From Arbacia lixula (lineage: Eukaryota > Echinodermata > Echinoidea > Arbacioida > Arbaciidae): 64,000 nucleotides of DNA. Numbering within the stretch: the first letter of the stretch is position 1; the number at the start of each line of letters is the position of its first letter. Location of the stretch: contig OZ022576.1 in the NCBI GenBank assembly GCA_963669155.1, positions 16,245,035 to 16,309,034 on the forward strand, read 5' to 3'. The translations under genes and the position numbers were made by a program. Below the pieces are notes generated by a model, which was given only the letters and a program-made list of their open reading frames with translations, searched no databases and was not told where the DNA came from. Shown one piece after another: positions 3,001 to 63,974 of this stretch.

Positions 3001-6000
3001 ATTTGAAGAAAAAAAACACACACCTCCAAGTGACGTCAAAGGAGTCAAATGCCATAAAAGACTCCGTTGTTAAACTTAGATTGTACAGAAGTCAACGATA
3101 ATTTCTAATAGACCTTTTAATTCGTTATGTATACAAATTTTATTCACGCCGTTCAAACAATGCGTTACCAATGGGAACTCCAAAGCTTGTCCGAGGTTTG
3201 TCCTAGTCGCAACAACTAATAGATTCAAAGTGCATTCCATCCATTGAATCTGAATGACAAGATACAAGTGAATGCAATAACGCGTTACGACGCAGTTGGG
3301 GGGAAAGTTGTAAATACGTTACGAAAATGGTCTATATATTGTTGTCCTCCGTACAATCAAAGTTTAACTATGAAGGTGTTAGAACTGGAGTCGGCACAAA
3401 GAGTAATTTATTCCTTCACCAGCTGCGTTCATTGATAGCACAATATAATATTTGACGCGTTTGGGTCTTTGATCGAGGGAGGTCCGCCGCCAAATATGCT
3501 AGACAAATTTTGGATGCATTTAGAGGAATATAATATTCTGTATGCGCAGAAGATTTCAGAACCACTTCATGTACTGAAGTGCATATGCAGTAGTAGAACA
3601 TCGTATAATGATACGATTCTGTGAATTTCAGATTAGATTGTTGCTTCGTTTTTTTGATAAATCGAGAAAACTGTCGAAAACATGTCAGAGAAATGACTCC
3701 ATATCGCACATTGGGGCAATCATATTTCCTTACAAATATCTTATAAATCGTTTCTTGAGTATTTCACATTCCATGGAAACAACCTCGATTTTATGTGCGG
3801 AGATGTCCGAAAAAGTTACGGACCAAATTCTTTCTACAATTTTATCAAAATTTCCCTTCGCTGACCCCCAATCTAATTTCCAGTGTGTGTAATAAGATCA
3901 GCTATGAACTCCCAGCGAAGGCTGAACGGTTGACATATTTCTCAAACCAGATTTTATTTTGTTATTCAGAGGAAGGCACTGCCTAATTAGAAATACAGCG
4001 TATTGTTTGAAACACCTGAATGTCTTGAAATGTTATGAGGCGGCGGTCATCATAGATCAAAGGAAGTCTATCCGAGCACAGTCCATCCATGATAGGTCCA
4101 TGATGCGGGTAATGCGAGGTTGGGGTCAATCTTCACAGATCATGAAGCACATCTCTCTCTCTCTCGTTAAAAAAAAAAAAAGATTCACTTTTCGACATGA
4201 CCGTGTGTGTGAATGCCCCTATTGTATCATGCTCGGGTTGTTACTCCTTCCTAACACCTCCCTGGTCATATACGGGAAGAGAGATGTTCAAGGAAAACTA
4301 GGTGCAATAAAACACATGACGGATTGAACTTCGTTATACTGAACATGTAGTAGGTGACGTGTGATACGTTTATCGATGTGAGTGTGGGTTGCTTTCCTCT
4401 CTGTTTTAGACACAACGACATTGCATCTGGATTGCGAAAATGTGCAAGTAAACTACACTCAAGAGGGCGACACAGACCAGTGCTTTGCCGCTGTGAACTT
4501 CAGTTGCGCACTGTCTACTAATAGCGAGTCTAATCCGAACATCACGTGCATAAATGATGAAAACAACGATAAACTCGACTACACTGGACAAAATATGTTC
4601 ATTCTGGGCGCAACGAATGTCACCTGTACGGCCACAGTGGGAAGTGAGCTTGCCAGTTCTAAATTTACCGTTGACGTTCAAGTGAACGGTGAGTAATCAA
4701 CAGGGTAGCCAAAGTGGGTGACTGGGGAACGAGGCAGCCCCCCCCCCCCCCCCCCATTCAATATCGGGTTTCAGAGGAGTTTGTCGACACAAGGGATACT
4801 TTGTTGGAACAAATGCATGTCATTGTTTGCCACCAAATTAAACAAAATGATAATTAAATTGTACGTTGTGCTTTTTTTCTAGAGCTGCTCACTCGCTTCG
4901 CTCTCTCCCAAAAGGAAGAAGGATGCAGGACAAGATAACGGATTGAAATGCATTTTAAACGTTTTATTTGACGTTTGCACGGTTACATGTCCCTTCACTT
5001 CAGATGAATCAACTACGTGGCACCCCTTAGATTTCTAGAGCTGTTCGATAATTTTGCTCACTCTCAAGAAAGGTGTTTACAAAAACTGCTGGCACTTTTG
5101 AAAAATTATGTTTCAATAGTAACAACTCGAATGAAGCTTAAATTTGAGCAACGTGAAGTCAAAGGATGTCATGTTTTTAATAAGCAGGTCTCGTTACATT
5201 TCATCAATCATTATTCTTGTAATAATCCTTTGAATATTTAATTAGATTTTCATTTTAGGACAAAATTTGGACCTCAAAATGTGTGTGTATCAGAAAATTA
5301 AGTCAGAACACAACATTTCATTTCATTTCATTTATTTATTTCCACATTCAAATTCAACAAAGTAAGAACAATAACAATGTAAAAAACACAAGTAATCCAA
5401 GACAAACATAACATTCAAGTACAAGAAATAAAAAAAACAACAACCATAAGGTATCAAAGAGAGGTTAAGAACATATACATAACATAGTATTTAAATGTGG
5501 AGGAACCACCAAAAGCCAAAGAGGCTTATCGAGGGTGGTCCCCGTGAGTGTGTATGACAAAACTTATGTTCAGAAAGAAAGGAAGGAAAGATAGAAAGAA
5601 AGAGGGAGAGAGAAGGTGTAGGAACGATAGAGAGAAAGAAAAGGAGTATTTAGAACGTACATACATGCAGTAACTACTTTACAATATTTCATTTTGCAGT
5701 ACATATAACTTGTATTTCCTTTTAAAATTTGATACGGTTGGACACAATTTATACTCATTTGGAATACCATTCCAACACTTAGGTCCGATGTAATTAATAG
5801 TTGTCCGTGAAAAATTGTACTTATAAAATGGTAAACGTATATCCCCCTGAGCTCTAGTACTATACTGATGAATTGCACTATTACATGTAAAAATGTTTTC
5901 AAAAATCAATGGAAGAATACCTTTAAAATATGAATACATAAATATGGCAACTTGCAGATTAGTTATTTGATATACAGTTAAGACTTTCATTTTTTTTAAA

Positions 6001-9000
6001 AGAGGTAAAGTGTGGCTAAGGGGTTGGGCTTTACAAATAACTCTTATTGCACGCTTTTGTAGAATATATAACCTGTTAATTATTGTTGAGCCACAGTTTC
6101 CCCAGACAATGTTACAATAAGATAAATGCGGTAAAATCATGGTATTATACAACATTGATAATATTTGTAGAGGAATAATCAACTTTATACGATTAATTGC
6201 ACCAATGGCCCTTGAAATTTTACAAGCTATATCATTAATATGTTCCTTCCAAGTTAGTTTGGAATCGATTGTTACTCCTAAGAACTTTGTTCGTTCTACT
6301 TGTTGTATTAAAATATCACCAATTCTGATTTGTAAAGCTGTCTCATCAATTAAAAGGTTTCTTGGTTTAAAAATCATGTAACAGGTTTTATCCATATTGA
6401 TAATTAGATGGTTGGCATTAAACCACTGTTTTACATTCTTTAACTCAACATTTATGTTATTATTTAATTCATTGACGTCTCTACCAGACATAAAAAGATT
6501 AGTGTCATCAGCAAACATAATTGACAAGAAATGATCATTGACAAATTGAAAATCGTTGACAAATAACAAAAATAATAATGGACCTAGAACCGATCCTTGA
6601 GGAACGCCTGTTCGTAAATAGGATTGTTCAGATGTACAGTTATTAATGAATACAGATTGTTTACGATTAAAAAGATAGCTCTGAAACCATTTTAGAATCT
6701 TGCCTCTTATACCATATATCTCGAGCTTATTCAATAAAATTTGATGATCGATGCAATCAAAAGCTTTTGAAAGATCTAAAAATATTCCAACTAAAATTTC
6801 CTTTTTTTCAAATACAGTGGCAAGATTGTGAGCAAATTCTATGAGAGCTGTACTTGTTGAATGGCCTTGTCTGAATCCAAACTGTCTTTTGTATAAAATA
6901 TCGTTCTTGACAACGTAATTCATGAGTTTATTATACATTATTTTTTCAAAAGTTTTCGTAAACACAGACAATAAAGAAATTGGTCTATAATTTGAAATCA
7001 TGTCCTTATCACCCTTTTTAAAAACTGGAATGACTTTGGCTAATTTCAACCTATCAGGAAATATACCATGTTCCAGTGAAAGATTAAAGATATTGCATAG
7101 TGGTTGTAAGATGAGATTAATAGTCTTCTTATATACCTCTACATTGATATCATCAAACCCTGGACTCTTGTTTATTTTAAAAGTATTAACAGCTTCTATA
7201 ATATCGGCAAGACTAATGGGTGATAAAAACATAGAATGGGTGATTCTTTTTTTCATAAAACATCTAAAATTAATATTACTTGACGGCAAGTTTTCAAGAA
7301 GTTGACTTCCTATTGCACTGAAATAACAATTGAATCTATTTGCAATTTCCCTTCCGTCCTCAATAATAACACCCTCATCTTTAACGATTTTACATTGTTC
7401 TCTTGTCTTTGACTTACCAAGTACTTCATTAATGACTTTCCATGTTTTATTCAAATCACCATGCAACTGGTTAAATTTTTTCATATAATATTTTCGCTTA
7501 CACTTCCTTAATTCAGTATTAAAAGAATTTCTATATGTTTTGAATGCATTTTTTCTTGCTGATGTGGGGCCTTTTACATACTTACGATATAGGGCATGTT
7601 TCTTTTTACACATTTTACGCAATGAACTATTAAACCAAGGTTTATCTCTAGTTTTGAATTTAGAAAGAACTTGTTTGATAGGAAAACATTCATCATATAA
7701 AAGCATGTATTGATTAAAAAAGGCCTCAAATCTGTCATTAACCTCACTGCAATTATGTATGAATGACCAATCTTGGTTATGTAATGAGGTACTGAAGTGT
7801 GTAATCGATTCATTATTAATAATACGTTTATAATAACAAGATTCAGGTGGGCTTATATCGACCGAATTAGTTATTGCAAATATTGCACAATGGTCACTAA
7901 ATTCACAAGTGAGAATACCAGAATGTGATATATTATTTGATTCATTAGTAAAAATATTATCTAAAAGCGTTGCACTCTCAGTGGTGATGCGAGTGGGCTT
8001 GGAAATTACAGGAGTAAAAGAAAATGATGACAACATATCAACAAAGTTGTCTGACAATGTGGTTGAACTTGGTACATTTATATTAAAATCACCAAGTAGA
8101 TAGCATTCCTTCTTTTCATCTGAAATCTGCTGTAAAATTGGTTCTAACTTATCTAAAAAAAGATGTAACGGATTGATCAGGAGGTCTATATATTACATTA
8201 ATCACAACGTCTTTATGCAAATAAGAATTACCAACCTCAATACAAATAGATTCTATGGCATTATCCATAATTTCTAAATCATATCGTCTCTTAAATGATA
8301 CATTATTAGCGACATAAATACCTACACCACCACCCCGTTTCGAGATACGATTATTGGCAAGTAAGGAATAATTAGGGATATTCAAAAAAACACTTTCTCC
8401 TTCTTTCAACCATGTCTCTGTTAATGCAATTATAGAAAATTCCGAGTTAAAACAATTCAAGAAAGTATTCAAATTATCGAAATTTTTCTTTAAACTTCTA
8501 CAATTGAAATGTATAAATGATAATTGATTAGTATCACATTTCAGTTTATTATAATCATCAGGGGTCATATAAGGGGATTCAAATGTATCTAACGTCCTAT
8601 CCAGGTGTATAAATGGCAGGAAAGGCATATATATACTGCTGTGCTTGGTTTACAATTCTGCATGTTGTATACACGAAAGGAGAAATCAAACAGAGAGACA
8701 TGTTTATACAAGATCATAATAATATCAACACAGGGTAATGTACACAAATGACAAAAAACACTACGAAGAAAAAAAAAAGTATGTATCAAAATACGATAAA
8801 ATAAGCTAATGTACATATGATTGATCACAATAACAAAAAGAGAAAAACACATTTCCGCTGATATACTTTATGATCAGTAAAAAAAAAAGAATATATATAT
8901 ATGGCCTGAGGCTCGTGCACATTAAGCATGGCGGATATTGTACTTTATCAAGTCTGCATCGCACGAGATCGACAGAAGTTTATTGTCATCAGTTCTAACC

Positions 9001-13027: not shown

Positions 13028-14926
13028 GGGGGGGGGCGGTGGGGCGTGTCTGTGGGGGTGTGTACAGACAGTCCTTTATGAAGAAAAGGGGGAGGTAAAG
13101 AAGCCCATATGGTGGAAAAGAGATACATGAATACAGGAAAAGCAAGGGCGGGTGTAGAGAAAGGAAAGGAATGCAGGAACACGTAAAAATGTATCATGAG
13201 TAGGAGGTAAGAATGAATAATGATTACGAGTGGAGAATCATTTCCCTGAAATATCAAACTAAAGTTAAAACAATATGACCATCAGATATATGTGGCCATT
13301 CACGGAAGTGATAATGATAAACCTGTAACAGCAGTATTAGCATTTTCTAAATGTGAACGACAGGGTACAAGGTTCGGTTTGTTATAATAAAAGGGGTTTG
13401 ATCTATTTCTAAATCATACTTCGGGAAATGATTTACCACTCCTGTTTTTCTGTTCTTAGCTTAAAAAATATGGGGATGAAGCCTCCTTGGGTAAACACGA
13501 ACCTATGATGAATAATTTACCAGTATTTATTCGATTTCACAGGCTTTCCTGCGATTATCTGCGTGGTAACCGCTGTGGTCGATAGGACACTGTATCTAGA
13601 CGACAACACATAGTAAGTTTGCAGAGGCAAATAGATATTAATGAGAGTTCCAGTAAAAGCGCATTAAACGGCTTTGAAGGTTGGTCTATGGAAGGAAAAT
13701 TCACGTGGCTCAAGTAAATTTTACAATCAATACATCTGTGGAACTAAATGTAAAAGAAAGGCCACCTCATTAAATAAATCATTATGTAAACAACAATTAT
13801 GTTGACCTCTTAACTGTAAAGGTGTGTGTGTGTGGTTTGGGGGGGGGGGGGGGGGTAGTGGAGAGAAGATTCGCCACCCCATCCCAGGATAAAAATGTAG
13901 CACCACAAACAAAATTACTATGTGCAACTTTATTTTATAATTCATTGTTTCGTGACTAAAATAATGTATTTTTTTTTTTGCAAATTACGTTTACCAATGT
14001 TTCTTATCATTGGATGTGAAACTATAGTAAAAAACGAAACGCTGCTTGTTATAACCATAATATTGCAATGCACTTGAATGACTTGTTGGAGTTGTTCGAA
14101 AAAAGCATACCATGTCATTTTTAAAAATCTTTTCTGTGTGTATAACAGCTGCTTCTTTGCACTCAGTACTGGCCTGTACTACAGTGTGGTACTCTTTTTA
14201 ATCGCTCTCCTTGTACTGGATATCATCATGTGGGCGATGACCGCATGGTGCCTATGTGACAAGCCTGAACGCGGGATGGATCCAGATAGCAAGGACGGTG
14301 CCAATTCCCCAGTGCCGGGTAAGGCCGACGAGGGCGGTGCGGCAAGACGGCTGAAGAACGTGATGGCCATTACTCCGCTGCTCTGTGCCTCGTTCTTCCT
14401 GGGGTTTCGCTCGTTCTCCTCCCCTAGTACCATCGTTAACATCCTCTTCCTCGTATTCACCGACGTTTTCGGTCTCCTGCTCTTCGTGTTGCACTGTGTT
14501 TCACAGGCAGAGGTCCGGGACCACTGGAGCCGGTGTATGCGATGTAACTACGCCAAACTTCACGTCAGGATCCGCCGCCGCACCCAGAGGAAACCCTACG
14601 ACACCAGCAGAGGGCTCGACCGCCCAAGTGACCGCATGACGATGATCGAGATGGCTGACGAGGCAGATGGCAAGGCCGATCTTCATGGAGAGGCAAGTAA
14701 CGGCGGTCTAGATGCAACAGATGGCCCTGATGCGATGGAGGCTGACGAGACCAGTAATGGGAAACTCCCTACCAAGACAACAGCTCCAGATGAAACAAAC
14801 CCGGATACATCAGCTGTTGATCAGCCCGGCGATAGCAAGGACAGCAGCTTGGTTTCGCAGGACAAAACCGAGAAAACAACGGAGGTTGAAGGAAACCCAG
14901 ATAGTGGTAAACCTCTACTTGTGTAG
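1..14926 (+). CDS. HYR-domain 7TM receptor (adhesion/secretin-like GPCR), 5'-partial
   Basis: Exons by consensus and phase: <1-243, 2261-2551, 4410-4688, 10376-10449, 11507-11607, 12636-12889, 13543-13612, 14149-14926 (TAG). They join into one frame of 695 residues counted from the first visible codon at position 3. Residues 1-270 are three HYR-like, N-glycosylatable Cys-containing domains (recurring DQC, NITC, VGxTxVxCTAT). Residues 271-304 are a Thr-rich linker. TM1 is about 305-326, TM2 336-355, TM3 364-391 (Cys364), TM4 415-427; Cys438 in ECL2 could pair with Cys364. TM5 to TM7 lie in the last exon, with a long ICL3, then an acidic Ser/Thr-rich cytoplasmic tail ending PLLV, a possible PDZ ligand. 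TM2-TM3 (LALLGLHLAF; Cys then VLIHFFALS..W..VE) resembles family B2. Expected in the plasma membrane; ligand unknown. No GAIN/GPS cleavage motif is visible before TM1, which is odd for the family. The 5' end lies outside the window. Confidence 0.85.
1125..1605. repeat. Palindromic repeat family P1, copy split by a small MITE
   Basis: The stretch around TCAGAGCACCACAATG, then CATCACATCTGTCAA, and the resumption TACTAGCAACTGCCATCACAG match copies near 43047-43290, 45300-45540 and the two flanks of the LINE at 5313 and 9765. The copy is interrupted by a separate 220-bp element at 1299-1518. Confidence 0.6.
1299..1518. mobile_element. 220-bp TA-flanked MITE inside repeat P1
   Basis: Inverted ends GAGCGGTTTACTAA and TTAGTAAACCGGTC are each flanked by TA (1297-1298 and 1519-1520), as for mariner/Tc1-like elements. 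P1 sequence runs up to the left TA and continues after the right one. There is no coding capacity. Confidence 0.65.
1621..1728. repeat. 108-bp perfect-ended hairpin MITE
   Basis: The left arm GGGCCATATTCATGAAA and right arm TTTCATGAATATGGCCC are exact reverse complements. Pairing continues inward through TAGTTAGTTGCTAAA and TTTAGTAACTAACTA around a TTCCGC loop. Intronic and non-coding. Confidence 0.75.
3085..4110. repeat. Foldback-type repeat copy carrying an empty insertion site
   Basis: Positions 3765-4110 match 20127-20349 plus 21052-21170. Positions 3100-3245 match 21185-21320 in inverse orientation. At about 3985 the sequence reads through TTAGAAATACAGCGTATTG, where the copy at 20.3-21.1 kb is interrupted by a MITE. 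This copy therefore preserves the pre-insertion site. Lies in receptor intron 2; no gene seen in it. Confidence 0.65.
5679..8628 (-). pseudogene. LINE ORF2 endonuclease/reverse transcriptase, one frameshift
   Basis: The N-terminal frame (8628-8149) carries an APE-type endonuclease: HFNCRSL, LTETWL, then the GGGVGIYV and NVIYRPP segments. The second frame continues with LLGDFNIN and SDHCAIF (endonuclease motifs), then RT: NYRPISLLS, FLDLSKAFDCIDH, GVPQGSVLGPLLFLLFVNDF and the catalytic FADD (residues about 515-518 of the second frame). A C-terminal region ends at 5679. The frames meet in a run of seven T (minus strand, about 8150-8160). One extra T would join VTSFF to LDKLEP, so the break is a homopolymer indel, either real or an assembly error. 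Otherwise the length is near the usual size for such ORF2 proteins. Confidence 0.85.
8922..9719 (-). CDS. LINE ORF1 nucleic-acid-binding protein (265 aa)
   Basis: The intact frame starts with MNTRAAHQ, only about 40 nt inside the 5' junction. Residues 1-50 are basic and low-complexity. Residues about 85-117 are a likely coiled coil (heptad-like EAIQNLQRQVDEAQARLE). Residues 118-200 begin with YSRRNCILVHGVPE, the typical start of the L1-ORF1-like RRM core (transposase_22 type), and continue with basic IIIKFSRYSTRSRF. A C-terminal domain follows. By family knowledge ORF1p coats the element RNA and acts as a chaperone. It overlaps no host exon and lies antisense to the receptor gene. Confidence 0.8.
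   Translation of the reverse strand: MNTRAAHQNKQRKTPNPSPTQGATFSAAGSPKKNDGTVLTEACNEGSIAVPAKAGIVDAIVEAFADKKLLDKLIPALSQALHDCFMVEITKRDEAIQNLQRQVDEAQARLEDFEQYSRRNCILVHGVPETAQEDTSAIICKLAKDKLNQDISPLDIDRSHRLGQRGKKDAKGRQLIRPIIIKFSRYSTRSRFYNERKLLKGTNVFIHENLTATRQKWLHDTRRKYPAPHNKVWSQDGKIKVRTDDNKLLSISCDADLIKYNIRHA
10466..10665. repeat. Imperfect foldback in receptor intron 4
   Basis: GCTGCGTTCACGTGGAAGCGG near 10467 is roughly mirrored by CCGCTTCTGTGTGAATGTAAC near 10645. Non-coding; likely a decayed MITE just downstream of the 74-nt linker exon. Confidence 0.4.
12964..13026 (+). repeat. (GT)n microsatellite
   Basis: About 31 GT units with one GC interruption, followed by a G-rich run, in the intron between the TM2-3 and TM4 exons. 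Confidence 0.95.
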
Positions 14927-25685: not shown

Positions 25686-34650
<8,965 letters not shown>

Positions 34651-37600
34651 ATGATTGGTAAGTGTGAACCTATAACTGTATATTCAGCTTTTTGTAATTT
34701 TTCAAATCATCATTGATTCAGCTATGCTGTATGATATGCTGGATGTGTTACAGACAAAAAACTCCCAAGTTTTGCATTCTGCATGAAGTTAACCATATCT
34801 CCTCAGCAATGCATGCTCATTGTTAACAATTCATTCAGGCCTAGTTTGTGGGAACGTGTCAAATTAGGTCTTTTTTTATCGTATATGATATATGAACAGG
34901 CTATCATCAGTATTGTTTTCTGCACATTGTGAAAAAAGACAATTTGCATTTGGTACTGAATGACGTTTGGCCAAATAAGATTGTACATGGTATTTATTTC
35001 ACTTGAAATCAAACCTGCCAAAGCCTTTCATATGAAGTTTTGGATTTGCTTTCGAGATATTCCTGTAATTATTGTAATAACGAGTTAGTTTACCAAAGAT
35101 CTCGAAGGAGGTGAAAAGAGGAGACCTATTTCTATTATCTACAGTGTATTAATTTTTGCTTCAAAGGAATATTGTTTGATATTGGGAGGAGGCTTTGGAA
35201 GTCTTGTTGAGCTTGTTAAGTTTCTGTCAGATCTTTTAGGGCAGTGTGAGTTTTTCAAACATGTTTTTTTTTTTTATTGCTTGGCTTCATCGTGTATTAT
35301 ATACCACAATTCACCTAAGTGTTGTCATTTGAATATACTTTACAATGACGTGTCATTTTTACCTTTCAAAATAGAAAAAAAACATTGTTCTTATTTTGCT
35401 AGTTTTGTATGATTTGTAATTTATCCCATACAGATAGGAAAGAGATAGAATGGTAGCAAGGCGAATCCATCAACAACCCATTTGACAGGAAAGCAGAAAT
35501 CATAGGCCACACCTCTTGTTCCTCGCAACTTCATTGTAACTGCCAAAGCTTGAGAAGAAATAGGACCACATCGCAGACTCTTTCCTAGGCAGTCAGTCAC
35601 ACTTTGATTGTTGCCCACATAGGATCTCCACTGGGGCAAAGAATATAGATGCTGTACTACCCACCCATCCATGAGTTCAGTCTGATAGGAGGGCAGTTTG
35701 CTTGTTAGCAGAATCGCACACAGGACACAAACGAATGACATAACTTCCCTCCGTCTGCCCTCATAGGACCTCAACAGAACTAAGAATAGAGCAGACATCT
35801 TCAGAATTCAGAGCAAGCAGCTATCGGCTGATTGTGTTGTATATCAGACCTATGCGTGTGTTTATCTCGCGTGAAACATATAAGCAATGAACTGCGTGTG
35901 ATGCTCTTTTCGATTTGAAACTTCATGCAGCCACAATCGTAATGAGCACAAGGCGGCAACAACGTTGTGCCCTGTGTACATGTCACATGATTCGTACAAG
36001 TTCGACATTTAGGAATCTCAACTCAGAAGGGTAAAATGGGCTGAATATCGCACTTTATACCTGATTTGAGTCCTCATTCCTATTTATACATCTGGAGTAA
36101 AAAAAAAAGAATTTTTGACTTTGCATGATTGTTAAGGAATCTTATTATACATAGCTTGTATGGATCATGTGACTATTGATTTTTTAACTTGGAATTTGTC
36201 ATTGTTTGCTTTAAATATCTTACAACAATAGAAGGCTAACAACAAAATCAAACAAGCATACACTACTTTCCAATGGATTTACGGAAACAAAAGACGGTTC
36301 AAACCATTACATCAAACGGTCTATACAGACATGTTACCAGGCTTTGATTTGTAAATATGTATGATGTAAATGTTGTGTACTATTCTAATGTTGTGTAAGT
36401 TAAATGACCTTAAAGAAAGATACACACATTCTTTCTCCGGTTGCCTTCAAATAATGAGTAATCAGTTACACCGAAGTAAACATTTTTGTATTATTTGGCC
36501 AAATGTATTAATCATGCAAAAAAAAAAAGATCACTCAGCGCTATTAGTAGTGTCATACAAACACCATGTAAGTTAGCTGCTCTATCAGATATTTTGTTAC
36601 TAAGTATATTTTCAGCAATTTTAAAGATGCGGTTTGTGTCACAGAAATGTATTTACATTTTATTATGAACATCATTGCATTCTTTCAACAGATTGTCCAT
36701 ATCCTCTCATATGGGATGAATTTGTCTCTCTAACTTGTTGGTTTAGGATTGAGATCTAGTTCTGGGAATGTCTGAAACTTCTAGGATATACAGTGATATC
36801 CAAATTATGTGATTCTTAAAAATTTGTATATATATATATATGGCTTGCAAGTTGGTCCCGTAGCGATTGTAAAAATACATTTCTCTCAAAATACAAAGAA
36901 TGGGAGGGTACATACACAAGCACATATGGAACATATACACATGGTATTCACAGATGTCAAGTAATTAAAATGCAGAAAGTGTTATTCATTCCATGATGTG
37001 GGGAAGGGTGGGTTTACTATTTTATCTGTAAGTGATTTGTTCTGATGTTTTTTATCCAGCGTTATGGTTTTTGAATTAAAAGAAAAGAGTTTGTCATGAA
37101 TAGCCCAGATAGTTGTCCATAGTTCTGATTATTTCATAGCGGTGGTGCCTTTAGACCATTGTAAGAAGAGTTTTTGTTAATTTGTTGTATATTTCATTAT
37201 GAATACTTCCATATTTTTTGCCAATTCAATTTCAGGAACATCACTTCAACTTGTTTCGAGAAGATCCATGTAATAACTCATACACCACTGAAGCAATGCC
37301 ACTTATTCAACCAATCTTTTGTCAATTCGTGGGCTGCTTGAGCTTTCCCCAGGCGCACTGGAAATGTTAATTATTCTTGGGGTTTTTTCTCGGCAACTGT
37401 AAATCAGAAATTAAAGCCACCCTTTTCCCCAAGATCCAAGGTCAACTTTTTTACAAAGACAAGCAGGGAGGGGGCCTTGGACTGTGGTGTTTATGATTCA
37501 TTATTTTTTCCAGCTTTGTGAAGATTTTAAAAGCAAATTTTTCAGATGGGGTGTGCCATTGAGATGCCAGGTGACATTTTGTGAGACAATATCCTTAATT

Positions 37601-39000
37601 TGGCTCATTTGTTGAAAAGAAAGCCTCTCATAATTTTTAATTTTTTTCTAAGAAACAAAATATACATATTGGTAACACATCACTGAAACAAAGGAAAATT
37701 TTGCTTTTTTTATGTGAGGACTTCTTGATTAAGTCGCAAAAAAAAAAATTATCCCTGAAATCATTACTTTCCAAGGACATTCCACTTCTATTGTAACGAG
37801 CATCTAGATATAATGTAAGTTGACTCTATAGCTACATTAAGTAAAGGGAAAATTTGATTTTTGTGTTTAAGTGAGTGATACTGAAAATTTGTAAGTATAA
37901 TTTAATAACTACTTATGCCAGTTCATAGAATATATGAGAGACGAATTGTGTCCAGTACTCGATATAAAGAGATATTTTGTTTGGGCTTTGTTTATGTTAT
38001 CGTTTGGATGCGTAAGGAATACACTACATTTATCTTGGTGTTGGGTATTAAAAGTGCATGTAGTTTTCTCCTCAGAAGAAATGATAGATGGGTGCAGGAT
38101 TTCTATCTGCTCCTTTTTCAAGGAAGATTCCTTATCTGTAGAGCCAGGCTAGTTATATCTGCACTAGTTAGCTAGTCATATTTACACAATTGCCAGCATC
38201 ATACTTCCCAATTTATAGATGATGGGCGTTTGTACATATATCCATTGAGTAATTCGCAAAAGTCCTACATGTATCACCCAATTACTTGTTGCAAAATATC
38301 TAAGAAAAATTTTTGTTCATCGATTAATTAAAAAAAAAAAAAAAACCACCACAAGCCAGATTTGGCTAGTTAAAGCTGTTCTTGCTCACAAACTCTCGTT
38401 AGGCGAATCTTGAAGTTAGGAAGTCCTAGGGCCTTGACATATATTATTCAACTTTATACAAGCCATGGGAATAATGTAATCTTGTTTCTACACTGTCCAA
38501 AGGAATGTTCCTTTGAGCAAAGGTTATATGCTTACCAAGTTTCTTCCCATTCAAAGAAATTTGCCAAGATACAACGCAACATGTGTGATTGCTAGCCAAG
38601 TTGCTTCGAGCCATAGGAGTTGGGTAGCCAAGTTTCTTCCTGAGAGTTAGCTTACCCAAGTCTCTACAACAATAGGAGATAGCTAGCCCTGTTTCGTCAA
38701 GATGATGGTTGCTAGCCCAAGCTCTAAGTGCTAGCTCTGCGTCAAGTGAAATGTCAGATAGGTAGAGTATACCGGTATATTTCTTAGGTGTTTTTGTGAT
38801 GATAGTTTGATGATGACACATTTGCTTAAATCAATCGTTATGATTTGTAAGATGTACACTGACAATCCACTTAAGATTGGGTCTCTTTAACATGATTGTA
38901 AATTACAAAAATGCTAGTTAGATCCTTTGTTCAACTTGTAGTATCTCAAATGTTCATGATTTTTTTTTTATGAGAATATATAAAATATATTCCCTACCTT
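34651..39000 (+). other. hnRNP A 3' UTR and 3' UTR intron region
   Basis: After the stop, the exon ends at 34657 with GTAAGT. Candidate acceptors are at 35433 (CCCATACAG) and 37235 (TTCAATTTCAG). The region is collinear with 57640-61500 downstream of gene B, for example TTTGATTTGTAAATATGTAT (36344/59308), TTGTTCTGATGTTTTTTATC (37037/60098) and the TAGTTGTCCATAG segment (37111/60173). Matches also recur at 38550-38790/61090-61340. Long poly-A tracts and TA-rich stretches occur. No second gene is seen. The polyadenylation site is not determined. Confidence 0.6.
35410..35865 (+). other. Highly conserved non-coding block, copy A
   Basis: Nearly identical to 58277-58733 downstream of gene B. By hand alignment there are about ten substitutions and one 2-nt gap over about 450 nt. 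It begins at a conserved acceptor (TTTGTAATTTATCCCATACAG, exon-like start 35434). Joined to exon 9 it would give DRKEIEW and a stop; joined to exon 10 it would be 3' UTR. An open frame on the minus strand is not conserved. Confidence 0.75.
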
Positions 39001-41366: not shown

Positions 41367-42510
41367 CAGCTTACTCTCGATATAACGAGGTCGTCGGGAC
41401 CAGGGCTTTTTCCTCGTTATAACGAAACCTCGTTATATCCAAACATAAGAAAAAACAATAAAAAACATTGAAATATGTGTGCTTGTGTGTACTTTGTGTT
41501 TTACTATGTTTTGGTGTTCATAGCCGGCTCGGAATCATGTGTTATCAATCGGGAAAAGGGTGATTGGAACCATGCGTTTTCACATGGAAAAGAGGATATA
41601 TTTTTGCTCAACACATCATCCGACCTCGATATACTGTAGCCGTTCGAATAGCTAATTGCATTACATGACATGAATCGGACTTGCAAACCACATGCTTTCA
41701 ATGTACGTACGCTGTGCGAAGGAGTATGCTCCCGTATGTGCAGTGTATTACGAGATGTGTGCCTGGCTAGCGGCTCCATGCGTTGCCGATGCAATACATG
41801 TGCTTTCAATGTACATGTAAGTACGCTATGCGAAGGAGTACATGCTTGCGTTAATGTGTACAGTGTATTACGAGGTGTGTGCCTGGCTCCATGCGTTGCA
41901 GATGAAATACATGTGCTTTCAATGTACATGTACGTACGCTATGCGAAGGAGTACATGCTTGCGTTGTGTGTACAGTGTATTACGAGGTATGTGTCTGGCT
42001 CCATGCGTTGCCGATGCAATACATGTGCTTTCAATGTACGCGCACGTACGCTATGCGAAGGAGTACATGCTCGCATTGTGTGTACAGTGTATTACGAGGG
42101 GGTGTGTGTCTGGCTCCATGCCTCGCCGATGCAATACATGTGCTTTCAATGTACATGCACGTACGCTATGCGAAGGAGTACATGCTCGCATTGTGTGTTC
42201 AGTGTATTACGAGGTGTGTGTCTGGCTCCGAGCTCCACGCGTTGCCAATGCAATACATGTGTGAGAAGATTGCTTTCGGCCCGCTCGCCCTCAATTTTTC
42301 ATTCCTCGTTGTAACGGACACAGTTGTTATGTTTTTCTTTGTCTTGGAGTCAACATGATAAGCTCGTTATAACGAAATCTCATTATAACCGTGCTCGTTG
42401 TAAGCGACGTAGTGCACCATAGGTTTGCATGTAGACAATTTTGGGACCGAGAGATTTCTCTCGTAATGAAACCTCGTTATATCCGTGCTCGTTGTATCGA
42501 GAGTAAGCTG
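41367..42510. mobile_element. 1144-bp pogo-like element, TA-flanked
   Basis: The left end CAGCTTACTCTCGATATAAC and right end TCGAGAGTAAGCTG are inverted copies flanked by TA (41365-41366 and 42511-42512). Internal CTCGTTATAACGAAACCTCG motifs repeat the end. Terminal CAG plus CTCGATATAACG and a TA duplication fit pogo/Tigger-type elements. No transposase; the interior is a minisatellite. Confidence 0.75.
41694..42262 (+). repeat. Minisatellite, about 113-bp unit, five copies
   Basis: GCAATACATG (or GAAATACATG) recurs at 41791, 41904, 42016, 42131 and 42250, with intervening TGCGAAGGAGTACATGCT, CAGTGTATTACGAGG and CTGGCTCCATGCG in each unit. It makes overlapping open frames that are repeat artefacts. 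Confidence 0.9.
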
Positions 42511-47043: not shown

Positions 47044-57632
<10,589 letters not shown>

Positions 57633-58276
57633 ATGTGTGGTAAGTATTTTATCAGGCTCAGGTATTTTGGGGGGATATCAGATTCTATTTCAGACCTCAA
57701 CTTAGGCCCTGGGGTTTTAGGGTGTGTGATTTGTCTTTAAGCTTCAGCCACAGGACATTTCTTTCTCAAAAAAGTCTTTTTCTTAATGTATAAACCTACT
57801 TTTCCAAATTGTTTAATCACTGCTGTCCCCATTAAGGATCATGATATTACAATTTCCTATTAAGTGGAATTCTATATAGCGACAACATTGGAGCAATATA
57901 AAGGAAAAGGGCATGTCCACCTGCAATTATGGATAGCTACCCGAATTTCAATTAGGATTTATATTCTGCTGTCCAGTAGCATATTAGGTTACTGGTACAA
58001 GAAACTACCTTCTAGTTTCATTTTAGTCTGAAGTGTACTGGTATTTCTTTGGTGCTTGAAAGCGTAATTCTGATAGTGTTAACAAAATTGCAAGAAAGTT
58101 TTTTTTAGAGTATCTTAGTGAGTCTCCTTGAGCTTTTGCTGAGATATAAATGGGACGGGCAGTGAAGTTTTTTTGGCACAATTCACCTTACCAAAAATAG
58201 TGCTGTAGAAATAGTTTGCATGTCATGTTCATTTTCAAGATAGAAAAGGCATTGTTGTTATTCTGCTAGTTTTGAT

Positions 58277-58733
58277 TGATTTGTAATTTATCACATACAG
58301 ATAGGAAAGAGATAGAATGATAGCAAGGCGAATCCATCAACAACCCATTTGACAGGAAAGCAGAAATCATAGGCCACACCTTGTACCTCGCAACTTCATT
58401 GTAACTGGCAAAGCTTGAGAAGATATAGGACCACGTCGCAGACTCTTTCCTAGGCAGTCAGTCACACTTTGATTGTTGCCCACATAGGATCTCCACTGGG
58501 GCAAAGAATATAGATGCTGTACTACCCACCCATCCATGAGTTCAGTCTGATAGGAGGGCAGTTTGCTTGTTAGCAGAATCGCACACAGGACACAAACGAA
58601 TGACATAACTTCCCTCCATCTGCCCTCATAGGACCTCAACAGAACTAAGAATAGAGCAGACATCTCAAGAATTCAGAGCAAGCAGCTATCGGCTGATTGT
58701 GTTGTATATCGGACCTATGCGTGTGTATATCTT
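58277..58733 (+). other. Highly conserved non-coding block, copy B
   Basis: Counterpart of 35410-35865. The acceptor TTTGTAATTTATCACATACAG ends at 58300, and the exon-like part starts ATAGGAAAGAGATAGAATGA. If spliced to exon 9 it would encode DRKEIE and a stop. A 2-nt gap relative to copy A breaks any shared minus-strand frame. Confidence 0.75.
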
Positions 58734-61646
58734 GCACGAACGCGAAGCCATGAAGGGCATGATTTGCTCTGTTCGATTTGAGATGTCATATGGCCATCAG
58801 TCTTAATGGCGCCACATTATACCATATGTACATGCCTCATGATTCGTATAAGTTTGATAGGTAGGAACCTCTAAACTCTGAAGGCTTCAGACGGCAAGCT
58901 ATGACACTTGATAACTTTCTCTTCTTTTTCTTCTTTTCATCTGTAGTAAAAGAGATCTTTGTGAAGAAATCATTGCATTGCATTACTTGTATGGATCATG
59001 GGACATTTTAGTTTATTGTAAGAAATTCGAGTGGTATGAAATTTTCAATTCCCCCCTTCTTGGAGCAATTGTATGTCTCTTACATGTAGGGTTCTCCCTG
59101 ATATTTGAGAAAATGCTTAAATTATCACACAACTCAACAGGTCTAATGAACTTATTCTTGTAATGATTGTGCTAAAACTTACCCTCAAATTTATGAACAA
59201 ACCCTACTTTATGGGTAAAACAAACTCTATGGGTAGCATGTAAAAAATAAACAATGAACTACAGCGAGTTCCAGTCATTCCTAATCTAAACACATGTTTC
59301 CTGGATTTGATTTGTAAATATGTATATGAATGTTGTGTACTGTTGTAATATTGTATAAGTTAATTGACCTTGTAGATAGATGCGTCCATGTTTTCTTAGT
59401 CAAGTATTTCAGTTGCCCAGACATAATATGCAATCATAGAGTGAAGTTATGAAGTATACAAGTTTTGTTTTTTGGCTTGTTTGTTTTGCAAAAAGTTAAT
59501 CATGCACAGGAACGAAACTGAGTATAAAGTGTGTAAGTGTATCATTTTAGTTCCTTGAGCTATGCTCAACAATGTCCAATGTTTTTGTCAGAATTTGTAT
59601 CCAAGCCTTAATTTGTATTAATTAAGAAGAGTGAACCAAGCCTAAGTGTTTTTCACAATTCTGTGTGTGCTATAGGTGTCACAGACAAACATAATTGTCA
59701 GGAATGTGTCATTCTTCATTAGACATATCCCTGCATAGGCAATGAATGAGGATAGTTGGGCAAATATGTGCAGCTGGATTGTTGGCTCAGTCCTAGGTTG
59801 TGGAAACTTCTGTGACATCTATAGCATATACAGTACGTGGAGTCAAGGATAGTGTTTGTTTTAATAATTTGTACATATGAAGGATGAAATGGCTTGCTAG
59901 TTCTTCATATAATGGTTGTAATTTATCTTGGTCCTTTCAACAAAGATCACAAATGTGAGGGTATATGGCATACACATGCATATATAGAACATATACTCAT
60001 AGTATTCTCAGATGTCATCTTTTGAAATACAGGAAGTCATTCCTTGATGTGGGAAAGCTAGGTCGGGTTTGGGTTGATTGTTTTATTGTAAGTTATTTGT
60101 TCTGATGTTTTTTATCCCGTACTATGATTTTCGATTAAAAAAAAGAACAATTTGTCATGAATAGCTGAGATAGTTGTCCATAGTCCTGATTATTTGATAG
60201 CAGTGGTGCCTCAAGGCCATTGTAAAATGTGTTTTTTGTTATTTGTACATATATTTATGAACACTTCAACATGTTAAGACAAATTTATTACCAAAAATAT
60301 GGATAACAACATGCAAGAAGACCAATATCATGATACGTACACATCTGAACACAGCAACAATTCCCCACATGTGAATATTTGATATTGAAATGAATATATT
60401 GTCCCATGTTTATCTAAATAGAACAAAAGTTTGTCTTTGCATATTTGCTACCGGTTCTTATTTTAGTATGGCTCCATGTTAAACCCAAATCATGGAAACA
60501 AGTTATTTGCGAGCAGATTCATTGAAAATTAAAAATTGAGAAGCAGCACCTTGAACCATGTGATGCATAACATTTCAATGTATACTCTATTGAGGGGGAA
60601 GAATCACAGGTACTTTTGTTATTTTATGTATCATGTGTTGTAGGAGTCTCTTGAGCCCCATTTTTCATTGACCCACAGACAGATTTGCTTCAAATTGATT
60701 TCTTGAAGAACTGAAGAGTTTGTTCATCACTTTTAGAACCTACAATACTGGTGCTTACTGAACTAATACCTCCCAATGTACAGATGATCACTATTTGTAA
60801 GCCTTGATAATAGCTCATGAGAGTGGAGCATTTCCTCATTGCAAACCAAAATTTTATAACCAAATACAGTACATGTACCTGGTAATGTAAAATGTCATCT
60901 CCGACAGCTAATTGCTCACTGTCGAGAGTTTTTTTTTTTTTTTGACAAACCAAATATTCTCATTCAGTGACCCTGAGATAGTTATAGTTCCAAGTTGTAG
61001 AGAATGGATGGGCCGAACTATAATTCGAACCTGTATGTTTATACATAGTTGCCTCGAGCCATCATTTTGTGCTAACCTCCTTCCTCCAAGCTTGAAGAAA
61101 ACTAGCAAAGATTCAACACAACGTAGGTGTTTGCTAGTCAAATTGTTACGAGCCATACAAGTTGGCAACCAAGTTTCTCCGATCCTGCCAGTTATCTTCC
61201 TGAAGTTTCTACAACAATAGGAGATATCTACCCCAGTTGCATCAAGATGAAGTATGCTAGTCCTATCTTCCCAAGCTCTAAGTGTGTGCTAGCTCTGCAT
61301 CAAGTGAAATTTCAGATGGGTAGAGTATACAGGTATATTTCTACAGATTATAGGTGTTTTGTGTAAGTAACTTGTCTTTGTGAATGCAATGTAAGATGTA
61401 CACTGCAGAATTCCAAGTGAGGGTGGGGGTCTCTTGAAATATGATGTGATAGTGCTAATGTTTGTACCTGTACAAGGTAGAGTGAATTGATAACTTCAAA
61501 GATAAACCACCTGTTTCGGGACAAGCCACTACAAATATGTGGCTGGGGTTATAACTTTTGATTTGAGTACATGTATTACAAATGATTGAAAAATACATCA
61601 AGTGAAAGAGGTTCTGCCAAAGATGATCACAACTGTCTTCATGTGA

Positions 61647-62344: not shown

Positions 62345-63974
62345 TGTGATGTGCTTGAAACGGCTCAACCGATTCTACCTCGACTCGGCATCGCTCTCGT
62401 TGGCCTCTGTGATTGCGATTGAGCGTTGTCTCCCCCGAGACCATTGGCATTATGGCCTCCTCATCCCTGCACTGCCCTCGATGTTGTGGACAAGAGTTGA
62501 AACATTGGTCTCTACATTGAGGTCACCGAGCAACCCAATGGTCGCTGGCGCCTAGCTGAGGTAGGTCTTTGACCGTTAAAAAGCATGACAAAGGGAGATG
62601 GAGAGAAATAAGAGAGATCGAATGGAACCCAGAAAATGAAGGGAGAGGGAGTAGATAGAAATTGACCATCAAGGGGAGATGGAAATATGAATGTTGGGTG
62701 AGGTAGAACAACAAAATGAGAGACATTATGGAGCATGTTTTACAGTACAGGGAAACCCCGTTATAACGAGGGGGACGGGACCCACACTTTTTCCTCGCTA
62801 TAGCCGATTGCTCGCTATATCAGTACATGATCAAAACATACAGAAACAAATGCATCTATAGGACTATACAAACAATAACATATTTACCGCTAGGACTGTA
62901 ATATAAATGGCTTTGCAAGCATTCTAAACTGAATTCATGACCTAAAAATTCACTAAATATCTAACAGCACAGTTGAAAATGTAAATAAATGACACTTCCA
63001 ACACCTCCGTTTACCGACAAATGAAGCAGCGGGGAGGCCCAGTTACCCGGCCGCGCCTGCCGTCATGACTGCGTGTTAGCAATGAATGATCATTGAACGC
63101 TACCTGCATGCATGCGCGGCCGCGGTCGTACACGCGCGGTGTCACACGTGTTTAGAGGCTTCTGCCATGTAAGTGCGTGAGCGGGACTGTGTTGATTGTT
63201 GCGCGCGGGGGCATGCAGTACCTAGAGCCGTATAGAGATACGGCTCTGGCAGTACCACACGCATGTAATGTGGACATATGCATGTGTGGTTGTGTGGATT
63301 CTTGAACGGTGTGTGTGTGATCAGCGTTTAACGGCGCGAAGAAAATTGCCTGTGCTGTTGTTGCATTTCCCTCGCTGGGCGGCGTGGCTGAAGGGAGTTC
63401 TCGTAATAACGGAGTAAATTTCCTTTCTTTTTCTTTATTCTTGGGCTGGGAATTTGCCTCGCTATAGCAGAAACTTCGCTATAGCCGATCTCGTTATATA
63501 AAAACAGAATGCACAGAGGTCTATGGAAGAAAAATCAGGACCCAAGAAATGTCCTCGTAATAGCAGGGTTCTCGCTATACCCGTGCTCGTTATAACGGGG
63601 TTTCCCTGTATCTCCCACATATTGAATGATGTTCTGGAAAGGTGTTGTGACCCTGCCAATCTTTTAATGCACAAGTTTAATGTACTTTATTATTTCTCAT
63701 TTCTCTTTGCTAATTTCTTCTGTAATATCCTTCTTACTTGATCATACATGTTCTTGTACAGATTGAAGTGAAGTAGAAACAAAAAATGAATACAAATATG
63801 ATAACGCTCATTGTTAGATAGCATATAAACACATTTTTATCCAACTTGATATTTATAAAATAACTTGAAATCATGATTTACCAGTGTCCTTCTATTGTTA
63901 ACAGGCCCGCCTTTCGTTGCCTGTGTGATGACCGCTGTGGTACATGAGACGACGTACCTTGGCTAGAACAGAGT
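62345..63974 (+). pseudogene. Decayed second copy of the HYR-type receptor (TM2-3 and TM4 exons)
   Basis: The first piece (62345-62560) aligns with the TM2-3 exon 12636-12889. It shares CTCTCGTTGGCCTC, GGCCTCCTCATCC (vs GGCGTCTTAATCC), GTTGAAACATTGGTCTCTACATTGAGGTCACCG (similar order) and the same intron start GTAGGTCTT, but it is shorter and the matching peptides fall in different frames. The second piece (63905-63974) is exactly 70 nt like the TM4 exon and reads P.FVACVMTAVV..TYLG, then TAG where the first gene has Asp. Its acceptor and donor are intact. The stop and frameshifts make it a likely pseudogene; the gene may continue beyond the window. Confidence 0.75.
62748..63608. mobile_element. 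861-bp pogo-like MITE with perfect ends, TA-flanked
   Basis: CAGGGAAACCCCGTTATAAC at the left is the exact inverse of GTTATAACGGGGTTTCCCTG at the right, flanked by TA (62746-62747 and 63609-63610). Internal CTCGCTATAGC motifs occur near both ends. Inserted in the intron between the two receptor-pseudogene exons. Same family as 27647-28395. Confidence 0.85.

Follow-up and report, generated by a model that had tools for sequence, protein, structure and literature searches.

The window analysed here is a stretch of 64,000 nucleotides (C1:16245035-16309034) from a genome that was searched in full (607.0 Mb, 590 contigs), and it holds two of three tandem hnRNP A/B genes, the third lying past its end. 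The mitochondrial gene order 16S-COX1-ND4L-COX2 and the COX1 reading suit a sea urchin, most likely Arbacia lixula. The genes, numbered 1 to 3 below, are ~23 and ~30 kb apart, and their exons align one-to-one. The protein of gene 1 has two RRM stretches (Pfam) and finds its best matches among PDB sequences in hnRNP A1 (E 8e-48) and A2/B1; genes 2 and 3 are assigned to hnRNP A/B by alignment, with 83% identity to gene 1 in the RRM part. We take the YGPMKGG...RSAPY stretch of the hnRNP A/B protein to resemble M9. The gene structures in the window are as follows.

28673..33800, plus strand: coding exons 2-9 of gene 1 (28673-28791, 29838-29985, 30529-30724, 30958-31059, 31949-32008, 32296-32346, 32985-33077, 33693-33800)
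34499..34657, plus strand: last coding exon of gene 1, with the stop codon TAG at 34648-34650, then 7 nt, then the donor
34658..35433, plus strand: 3'UTR intron of gene 1, with donor TTG/GTAAGT (the slash marks the junction) and without AATAAA or ATTAAA
51330..57639, plus strand: coding exons 2-10 of gene 2 with their introns, with 7 nt between the stop and the last donor
57640..58300, plus strand: 3'UTR intron of gene 2, with donor GTG/GTAAGT

Because exon 1 was not located, all coding counts refer to exons 2-10. The original prediction had described the two genes of the window as hnRNP A/B paralogues whose RRM1-coding exon 3 is about 89% alike and whose introns are mostly unalignable. The assignment is borne out by the structure and Pfam matches of gene 1 and by the alignment of genes 2 and 3, and exon 3 (29838-29985 in gene 1, 51795-51942 in gene 2) shows 16 differences in 148 columns (89% identity). 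Most introns indeed fail to align by BLAST, but the last intron of genes 2 and 3 aligns throughout. An RRM2 query of the genome returned seven matches, the trio and four distant relatives with 44-50% identity.

Several other features of the locus deserve mention in their own right. Throughout the trio, GTACATGTAAGC comes directly after exon 3 (29986-29997, 51943-51954); it places another in-frame donor 6 nt beyond the assumed one and perhaps gives rise to an alternative isoform. In the intron that follows exon 6, genes 1 and 2 hardly differ over the initial ~35 nt (32009-32043, 54033-54067), a likeness that gene 3 shares in part (TCTGGAAACTTC) and that marks a possible intronic splicing element. 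A non-LTR retrotransposon copy or its remains lies on the minus strand at 5682-8649, with an 837-codon reverse transcriptase frame (Pfam RVT_1, E 7e-37); endonuclease-like matches that fall short of curated cut-offs occur in that frame and in a neighbouring one. The segments 27650-28397, upstream of gene 1, and 62826-63610, between genes 2 and 3, are 82% identical and perhaps represent a mobile element. There are two tandem arrays: a 112-base unit repeated 4.7 times at 41701-42229 (89% matches) and, in an intron of gene 2, a diverged 172-base unit repeated 4.8 times at 55512-56341 (74% matches). A 282-codon open frame at 14078-14923 weakly matches the secretin receptor family (Pfam 7tm_2, E 7.5e-4, which falls short of the curated cut-off).

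The feature of main interest is a block of 456 bases with three matches genome-wide, one per gene (identity 100, 97 and 97%), in a search that ignores very common words and scores the best candidates only.

35410-35865, plus strand: block match of gene 1 (genome search); its exon part, 35434..35865, is the first ~432 nt of the predicted 3'UTR terminal exon
35410..35433, plus strand: 24-nt end of the gene 1 3'UTR intron, with near-identical counterparts in genes 2 and 3, a weak pyrimidine tract and a CATACAG acceptor
58277-58730, plus strand: block match of gene 2 (genome search; the block itself spans 58277-58733); its exon part, 58301..58733, lies in the predicted 3'UTR terminal exon
C1:16332930-16333383 (window-equivalent 87896): block match of gene 3, 30 kb past the gene 2 copy and 24 kb outside the window

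Near-identity extends from ~25 nt upstream of the acceptor to ~430 nt inside the terminal exon, and the block thereby appears to open the last (3'UTR) exon, of which it covers ~430 nt, and to take in ~25 nt of the intron before it. Two near-identical copies, ~97% alike and beginning at a conserved acceptor, had been predicted; both are present at about the expected coordinates, a third is now added, and CATACAG/ATAGG is found in all three. The junctions proposed at 35433 and 58300 correspond to this predicted acceptor, with the first exon base lying one position later, at 35434 in gene 1 and 58301 in gene 2. A dispersed repeat, the alternative that the original prediction had wished to see checked, is rejected by the genome search, in which all three matches fall in the hnRNP A/B trio, and the block was not found at the four distant RRM2 relatives in a whole-genome DNA search. 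Exact-pattern scans of viral_contigs and genome_contigs for block orthologues in contaminating contigs gave 0 matches, and no paper title among the matches listed in a literature search names the block or an echinoderm hnRNP A/B 3'UTR element.

The block had also been described as non-coding, with which the reading frames agree. Its longest sense stop-free runs per frame measure 33-43 codons in gene 1 and 26-41 in genes 2 and 3. On the antisense strand the run reaches 128 codons in gene 1, 101 in gene 2 and 78 in gene 3, and the frame is not kept among the copies: a stop interrupts it in gene 3 and a 2-base indel separates gene 1 from genes 2 and 3. The antisense frame of gene 1 has no Pfam match. 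A protein-coding role in either orientation is rejected by the short runs, the broken or shifted frames and the missing Pfam match for gene 1.

The predicted splice-site anatomy around the block is the same throughout the trio: the stop codon, 7 nt, a good donor, 0.6-0.8 kb of intron and the acceptor. Scored with a donor matrix, the 3'UTR intron donors reach 9.0, 9.6 and 10.6 bits in the three genes, and the best GT inside the block, ATTGTAACT, reaches 2.8 bits in all three copies, against 3.0-11.2 for the 27 donors of the trio, 26 of which score at least 4.4. The pyrimidine fraction at positions -23 to -4 of the block acceptor is 0.60, 0.55 and 0.55; the 27 coding introns have a mean of 0.76 and a minimum of 0.60, which puts the block's tract at or below the weakest of them. 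Throughout the trio the 3'UTR intron lacks both AATAAA and ATTAAA, and full retention is therefore the natural alternative to removal of this intron, whose position may be ancestral.

The block is further distinguished by a cluster of UAGG, identified as an hnRNP A1 word by SELEX and iCLIP (PMC4932749, PMC9634572). The cluster, which the original prediction did not mention, would by analogy consist of the trio protein's own binding word.

35435, 35503, 35561, 35586, 35620, 35686 and 35764, plus strand: UAGG words of gene 1 (span 35435..35767), all seven aligned in genes 2 and 3

Dinucleotide shuffling of the gene 1 block gave a mean of 1.31 UAGG against the seven observed (P 2e-4, the floor of the procedure, none of 5000 shuffles having reached seven), 0.16 ATAGGA against five (P 2e-4) and 6.97 UAG against twelve (P 0.017). 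The 7 UAGG and 12 UAG occupy aligned places in all three copies; with variation at just 11 of the 407 sites of the core, however, the conservation of UAGG has no power on its own. The words are spread across 330 nt of the block, with the first at exon position +2, beside the weak acceptor. The window holds 43 ATAGGA on both strands against 28.9 expected, and 10 of the 43 fall inside its two blocks. When the rest of the three genes is cut into 66 non-overlapping 432-nt pieces, none has more than 4 UAGG. In sliding windows, 6-7 UAGG per 433 nt are reached at 4 other places in 132 kb (three on the plus strand and one on the minus strand), one of which overlaps a conserved element further downstream.

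Beyond the block, two more conserved features follow on the same strand.

36350..36357, plus strand: TGTAAATA, a Pumilio-type word, further down the gene 1 3'UTR, part of an element that the whole trio has
38557..38784, plus strand: second conserved UAG-rich element, downstream of gene 1, 78% identical to 61099-61342 of gene 2

Part of the second element (38586-38784) is 74% identical to the gene 3 copy, which lies outside the window. The element contains UAG and UAGG words, its antisense frames are alike in genes 1 and 2 and broken in gene 3, and it may represent a distal 3'UTR or downstream regulatory element. It lies 1.5 kb past an ATTAAA that in all three genes precedes the conserved stretch TTGTCATGAATAG...ATAGTTGTCCATAG (37075-37135, 60134-60194), a possible poly(A) region.

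Compared among the paralogues of this one genome, the block is more conserved than either introns or synonymous sites. Its exon part differs at 10 of 430 positions between genes 1 and 2, 9 of 430 between genes 1 and 3 and 15 of 433 between genes 2 and 3 (2-3.5%), whereas fourfold sites differ at 30 of 163, 39 of 158 and 37 of 167, respectively (18-25%; P 1e-10, 2e-16 and 1e-11). These fourfold counts are independent of the two codon methods used for exons 2-10, which differ from each other: in the same order of pairs, NG86 gives dS 0.32, 0.40 and 0.33 with dN 0.077, 0.086 and 0.054, and YN00 gives dS 0.16, 0.20 and 0.16 with dN 0.10, 0.12 and 0.075. The JC distances of the block (0.024, 0.021 and 0.035) are below dN in every pair with either method, so that the block changes less than amino-acid sites do. 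The longest run identical in all three copies measures 103 nt (35650-35752), genes 1 and 3 share an identical run of 191 nt within the block, and the variable sites are not clustered beyond a uniform expectation (longest spacing 104, P 0.17). In the alignable stretch of genes 2 and 3, the 15 differences in 433 block positions compare with 70 in 562 of the intron (P 3e-7) and 48 in 261 past the block (P 9e-11); as the block falls below its adjoining sequence here, this constitutes evidence of constraint that does not involve gene 1. Purifying selection on the block is likely.

What could such an element be selected for? The chances seem to us evenly divided that the block is a shared feedback element, through which hnRNP A/B protein hinders the removal of its own 3'UTR intron. 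The protein would bind the UAGG cluster, one word of which, at +2, adjoins the weak acceptor. When the protein is abundant, recognition of the acceptor would be hindered and the 3'UTR intron kept, the intron-retaining transcript staying in the nucleus or being unstable; when it is scarce, the intron would be removed and the mRNA exported. The three genes would sense the summed protein pool, because all carry the same element. These steps, from binding and repression to intron retention, feedback and cross-regulation, are inferred from sequence. A more far-reaching version, which we put forward as possible but doubtful, is a pooled dosage sensor: the shared terminal exon would read total hnRNP A/B and set intron retention of three genes at once, kept uniform by conversion together with selection, so that the RNA changes less than the protein under its control while the proteins and introns have drifted apart.

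Human data bear on this proposal from both sides. According to Suzuki and Matsuoka 2017, as cited in PMC8068773 and PMC9634572, HNRNPA1 favours the inclusion of its own intron 10, and PMC8068773 places the stop codons of human HNRNPA1 and HNRNPA2 in the penultimate exon. The latter paper also reports, however, that HNRNPA1 autoregulation is independent of its 3'UTR and that extra HNRNPA2 had no effect on HNRNPA1 intron 10 splicing, with 3'UTR-mediated compensation found instead; these findings speak against a sensor in the 3'UTR exon and against the proposed kind of cross-regulation. Exons repressed by hnRNP A1 are reported to have weaker 5', not 3', splice sites (PMC4932749). These contrary reports leave some probability to a purely mature-mRNA role.

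Could the near-identity of the copies have arisen by copying alone? Tandem genes can undergo concerted evolution by gene conversion, and the original prediction had offered local conversion as an alternative to constraint. The site patterns, counted without columns that have three states or gaps, support conversion as an actor, one that may operate together with constraint. Within the block, gene 1 is the odd one out at 2 two-state columns and gene 2 or 3 at 15, whereas in the 100-nt flanks on each side the ratio is 40:15 (40 of 55 against 2 of 17, P 1e-5). The upstream flank alone gives 16:2 (P 5e-6 against the block). The next 65 nt downstream (35966-36030) give 2 for gene 1 and 12 for genes 2 and 3, plus 4 three-state columns; with this piece included, the flanks stand at 42:27 (P 3e-4), and the two downstream pieces alone at 26:25 (P 0.005). 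Equal constraint would preserve the share of gene 1 seen in the flanks; the contrast of the block with its flanks (P 1e-5 to 3e-4) therefore points to conversion, which probably also acted here, or to a loss in genes 2 and 3 of constraint that gene 1 kept. The gene 1 branch takes up 69% of neutral change (P 7e-6), an estimate with few sites behind it. The idea that the block was recently copied among three neighbours and has no special function draws further on the tandem arrangement, on the 191 nt identical between genes 1 and 3, and on the 1.6 kb (57450-59018, 84%) over which genes 2 and 3 align continuously through the last coding exon, the 3'UTR intron, the block and 285 nt beyond. Most other introns of these two genes do not align in this way, and the stretch is likely an older conversion tract. 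Yet conversion alone would by our reckoning require at least two block-limited events with nearly equal ends, one of them at the acceptor. The upstream edge is a shoulder and not a single step, with 75% and then 85% invariant columns over the final 100 nt of the intron (81% in the last 32 nt of the block; 55% and 67% downstream). The discord with coding exons 2-7 and 9 is weak (46:68, P 0.03), the genes being nearly equidistant there (46 for gene 1, 35 for gene 2 and 33 for gene 3); exon 8 was left out, and the comparison for the last coding exon (P 0.17) is affected by misaligned glycine repeats. Copying also leaves the UAGG cluster unexplained. We regard conversion without function as quite unlikely, and suggest that a single conversion event combined with constraint would fit the numbers most simply, conversion among the three genes having probably helped to keep the copies alike.

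If the block is constrained, its role need not lie in the retention of the intron. An element of the mature 3'UTR, bound in the cytoplasm by hnRNP A/B or other proteins that set stability, translation or localisation and leave splicing untouched, would suit the spread of UAGG over 330 nt and not just beside the acceptor, the conserved Pumilio-type word and the second UAG-rich element further down, and reporters with human HNRNPA1 and HNRNPA2 3'UTRs respond to the other protein with splicing unchanged (PMC8068773). We still consider it unlikely, given that conservation reaches 25-40 nt back from the acceptor into the intron, a part absent from spliced mRNA, and that the acceptor tract is unusually poor in pyrimidines. 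The original prediction favoured an ultraconserved alternative (poison) exon. Such a classical exon, or splicing of the 3'UTR coupled to NMD, is known from vertebrate SR genes and from HNRNPA2B1: human hnRNP A2/B1 acts in this way in its own conserved 3'UTR (PMC3091714), and a sea urchin SRSF5 exon of such a type has been reported (PMC4379411), so that the general kind is known in the phylum. The trio also uses weak donors, one of which, at 3.0 bits, is close to the 2.8-bit ATTGTAACT. Nonetheless, the block has an acceptor of its own but no GT above 2.8 bits in any copy, below all 27 donors of the trio, and the predicted junction lies 7 nt past the stop in all three genes, short of the ~50 nt of the usual NMD rule, although a junction at another place in the 3'UTR may exist. 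With no good inner donor and an ordinary RNA fold, the poison exon is not supported and appears highly improbable; the retention of a 3'UTR intron, as in human HNRNPA1 intron 10, would be the closer parallel. Barely credible, finally, is the reading as a structured RNA or as a gene on the antisense strand, for which the 128-codon frame of gene 1 could be cited: the fold of the gene 1 block has a z-score of +0.50, with 69 of 100 shuffles folding at least equally well, the window has no Rfam match at gathering scores, leaving a structured RNA unsupported, and the antisense frame is broken or shifted in the other copies and lacks a Pfam match in gene 1.

Taken together, the block is a real, non-coding element in three copies, whose place and words would fit feedback by hnRNP A/B, with conversion as a contributor or a rival. 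Should feedback through intron retention prove to be its function, hnRNP A/B feedback via a terminal 3'UTR intron would occur outside vertebrates, which raises the question of whether it is ancestral to deuterostomes or had two origins. The tandem trio would offer a natural experiment in which one regulatory RNA acts on three diverged proteins, and orthologues added to it could separate selection from gene conversion. The dosage of hnRNP A1 and A2/B1 matters in human disease, and for this reason such a compact circuit would be useful for study.

Among known systems, the concerted evolution of tandem genes resembles the present case in the near-identical patch among neighbours and in a site pattern unlike that of the flanks, but here the patch starts near an acceptor, has an upstream shoulder and bears a cluster of binding words. 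The ultraconserved poison exons known from SR and hnRNP genes share with the block extreme non-coding conservation in a splicing-factor gene, and include the sea urchin SRSF5 case (PMC4379411); judged by its splice sites, however, the block is not a cassette exon, and its conservation is among the paralogues of one genome. A study of ultraconserved elements that includes sea urchin does not use the term "hnRNP" in its main text (PMC3556307). Human HNRNPA2B1, which autoregulates through NMD-coupled splicing, is likewise an hnRNP A/B gene with a highly conserved 3'UTR splicing event and motifs for its own protein (PMC3091714); it makes NMD targets by 3'UTR splicing, in contrast to the sole predicted junction 7 nt past the stop and the lack of a good donor in the block. 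The block showed no similarity to a provisional sequence for part of the human HNRNPA1 3' exon (P 0.89), and the human effect is reported to be independent of the 3'UTR (PMC8068773); here three tandem genes share one element, whose effect is predicted from sequence. The likeness to HNRNPA1 intron 10 lies in the arrangement: both are hnRNP A-type genes with a stop in the penultimate exon, a last intron within the 3'UTR (both predicted in the trio) and UAGG words, the protein's own, at that intron, and in both the intron would be retained by the gene's own protein.
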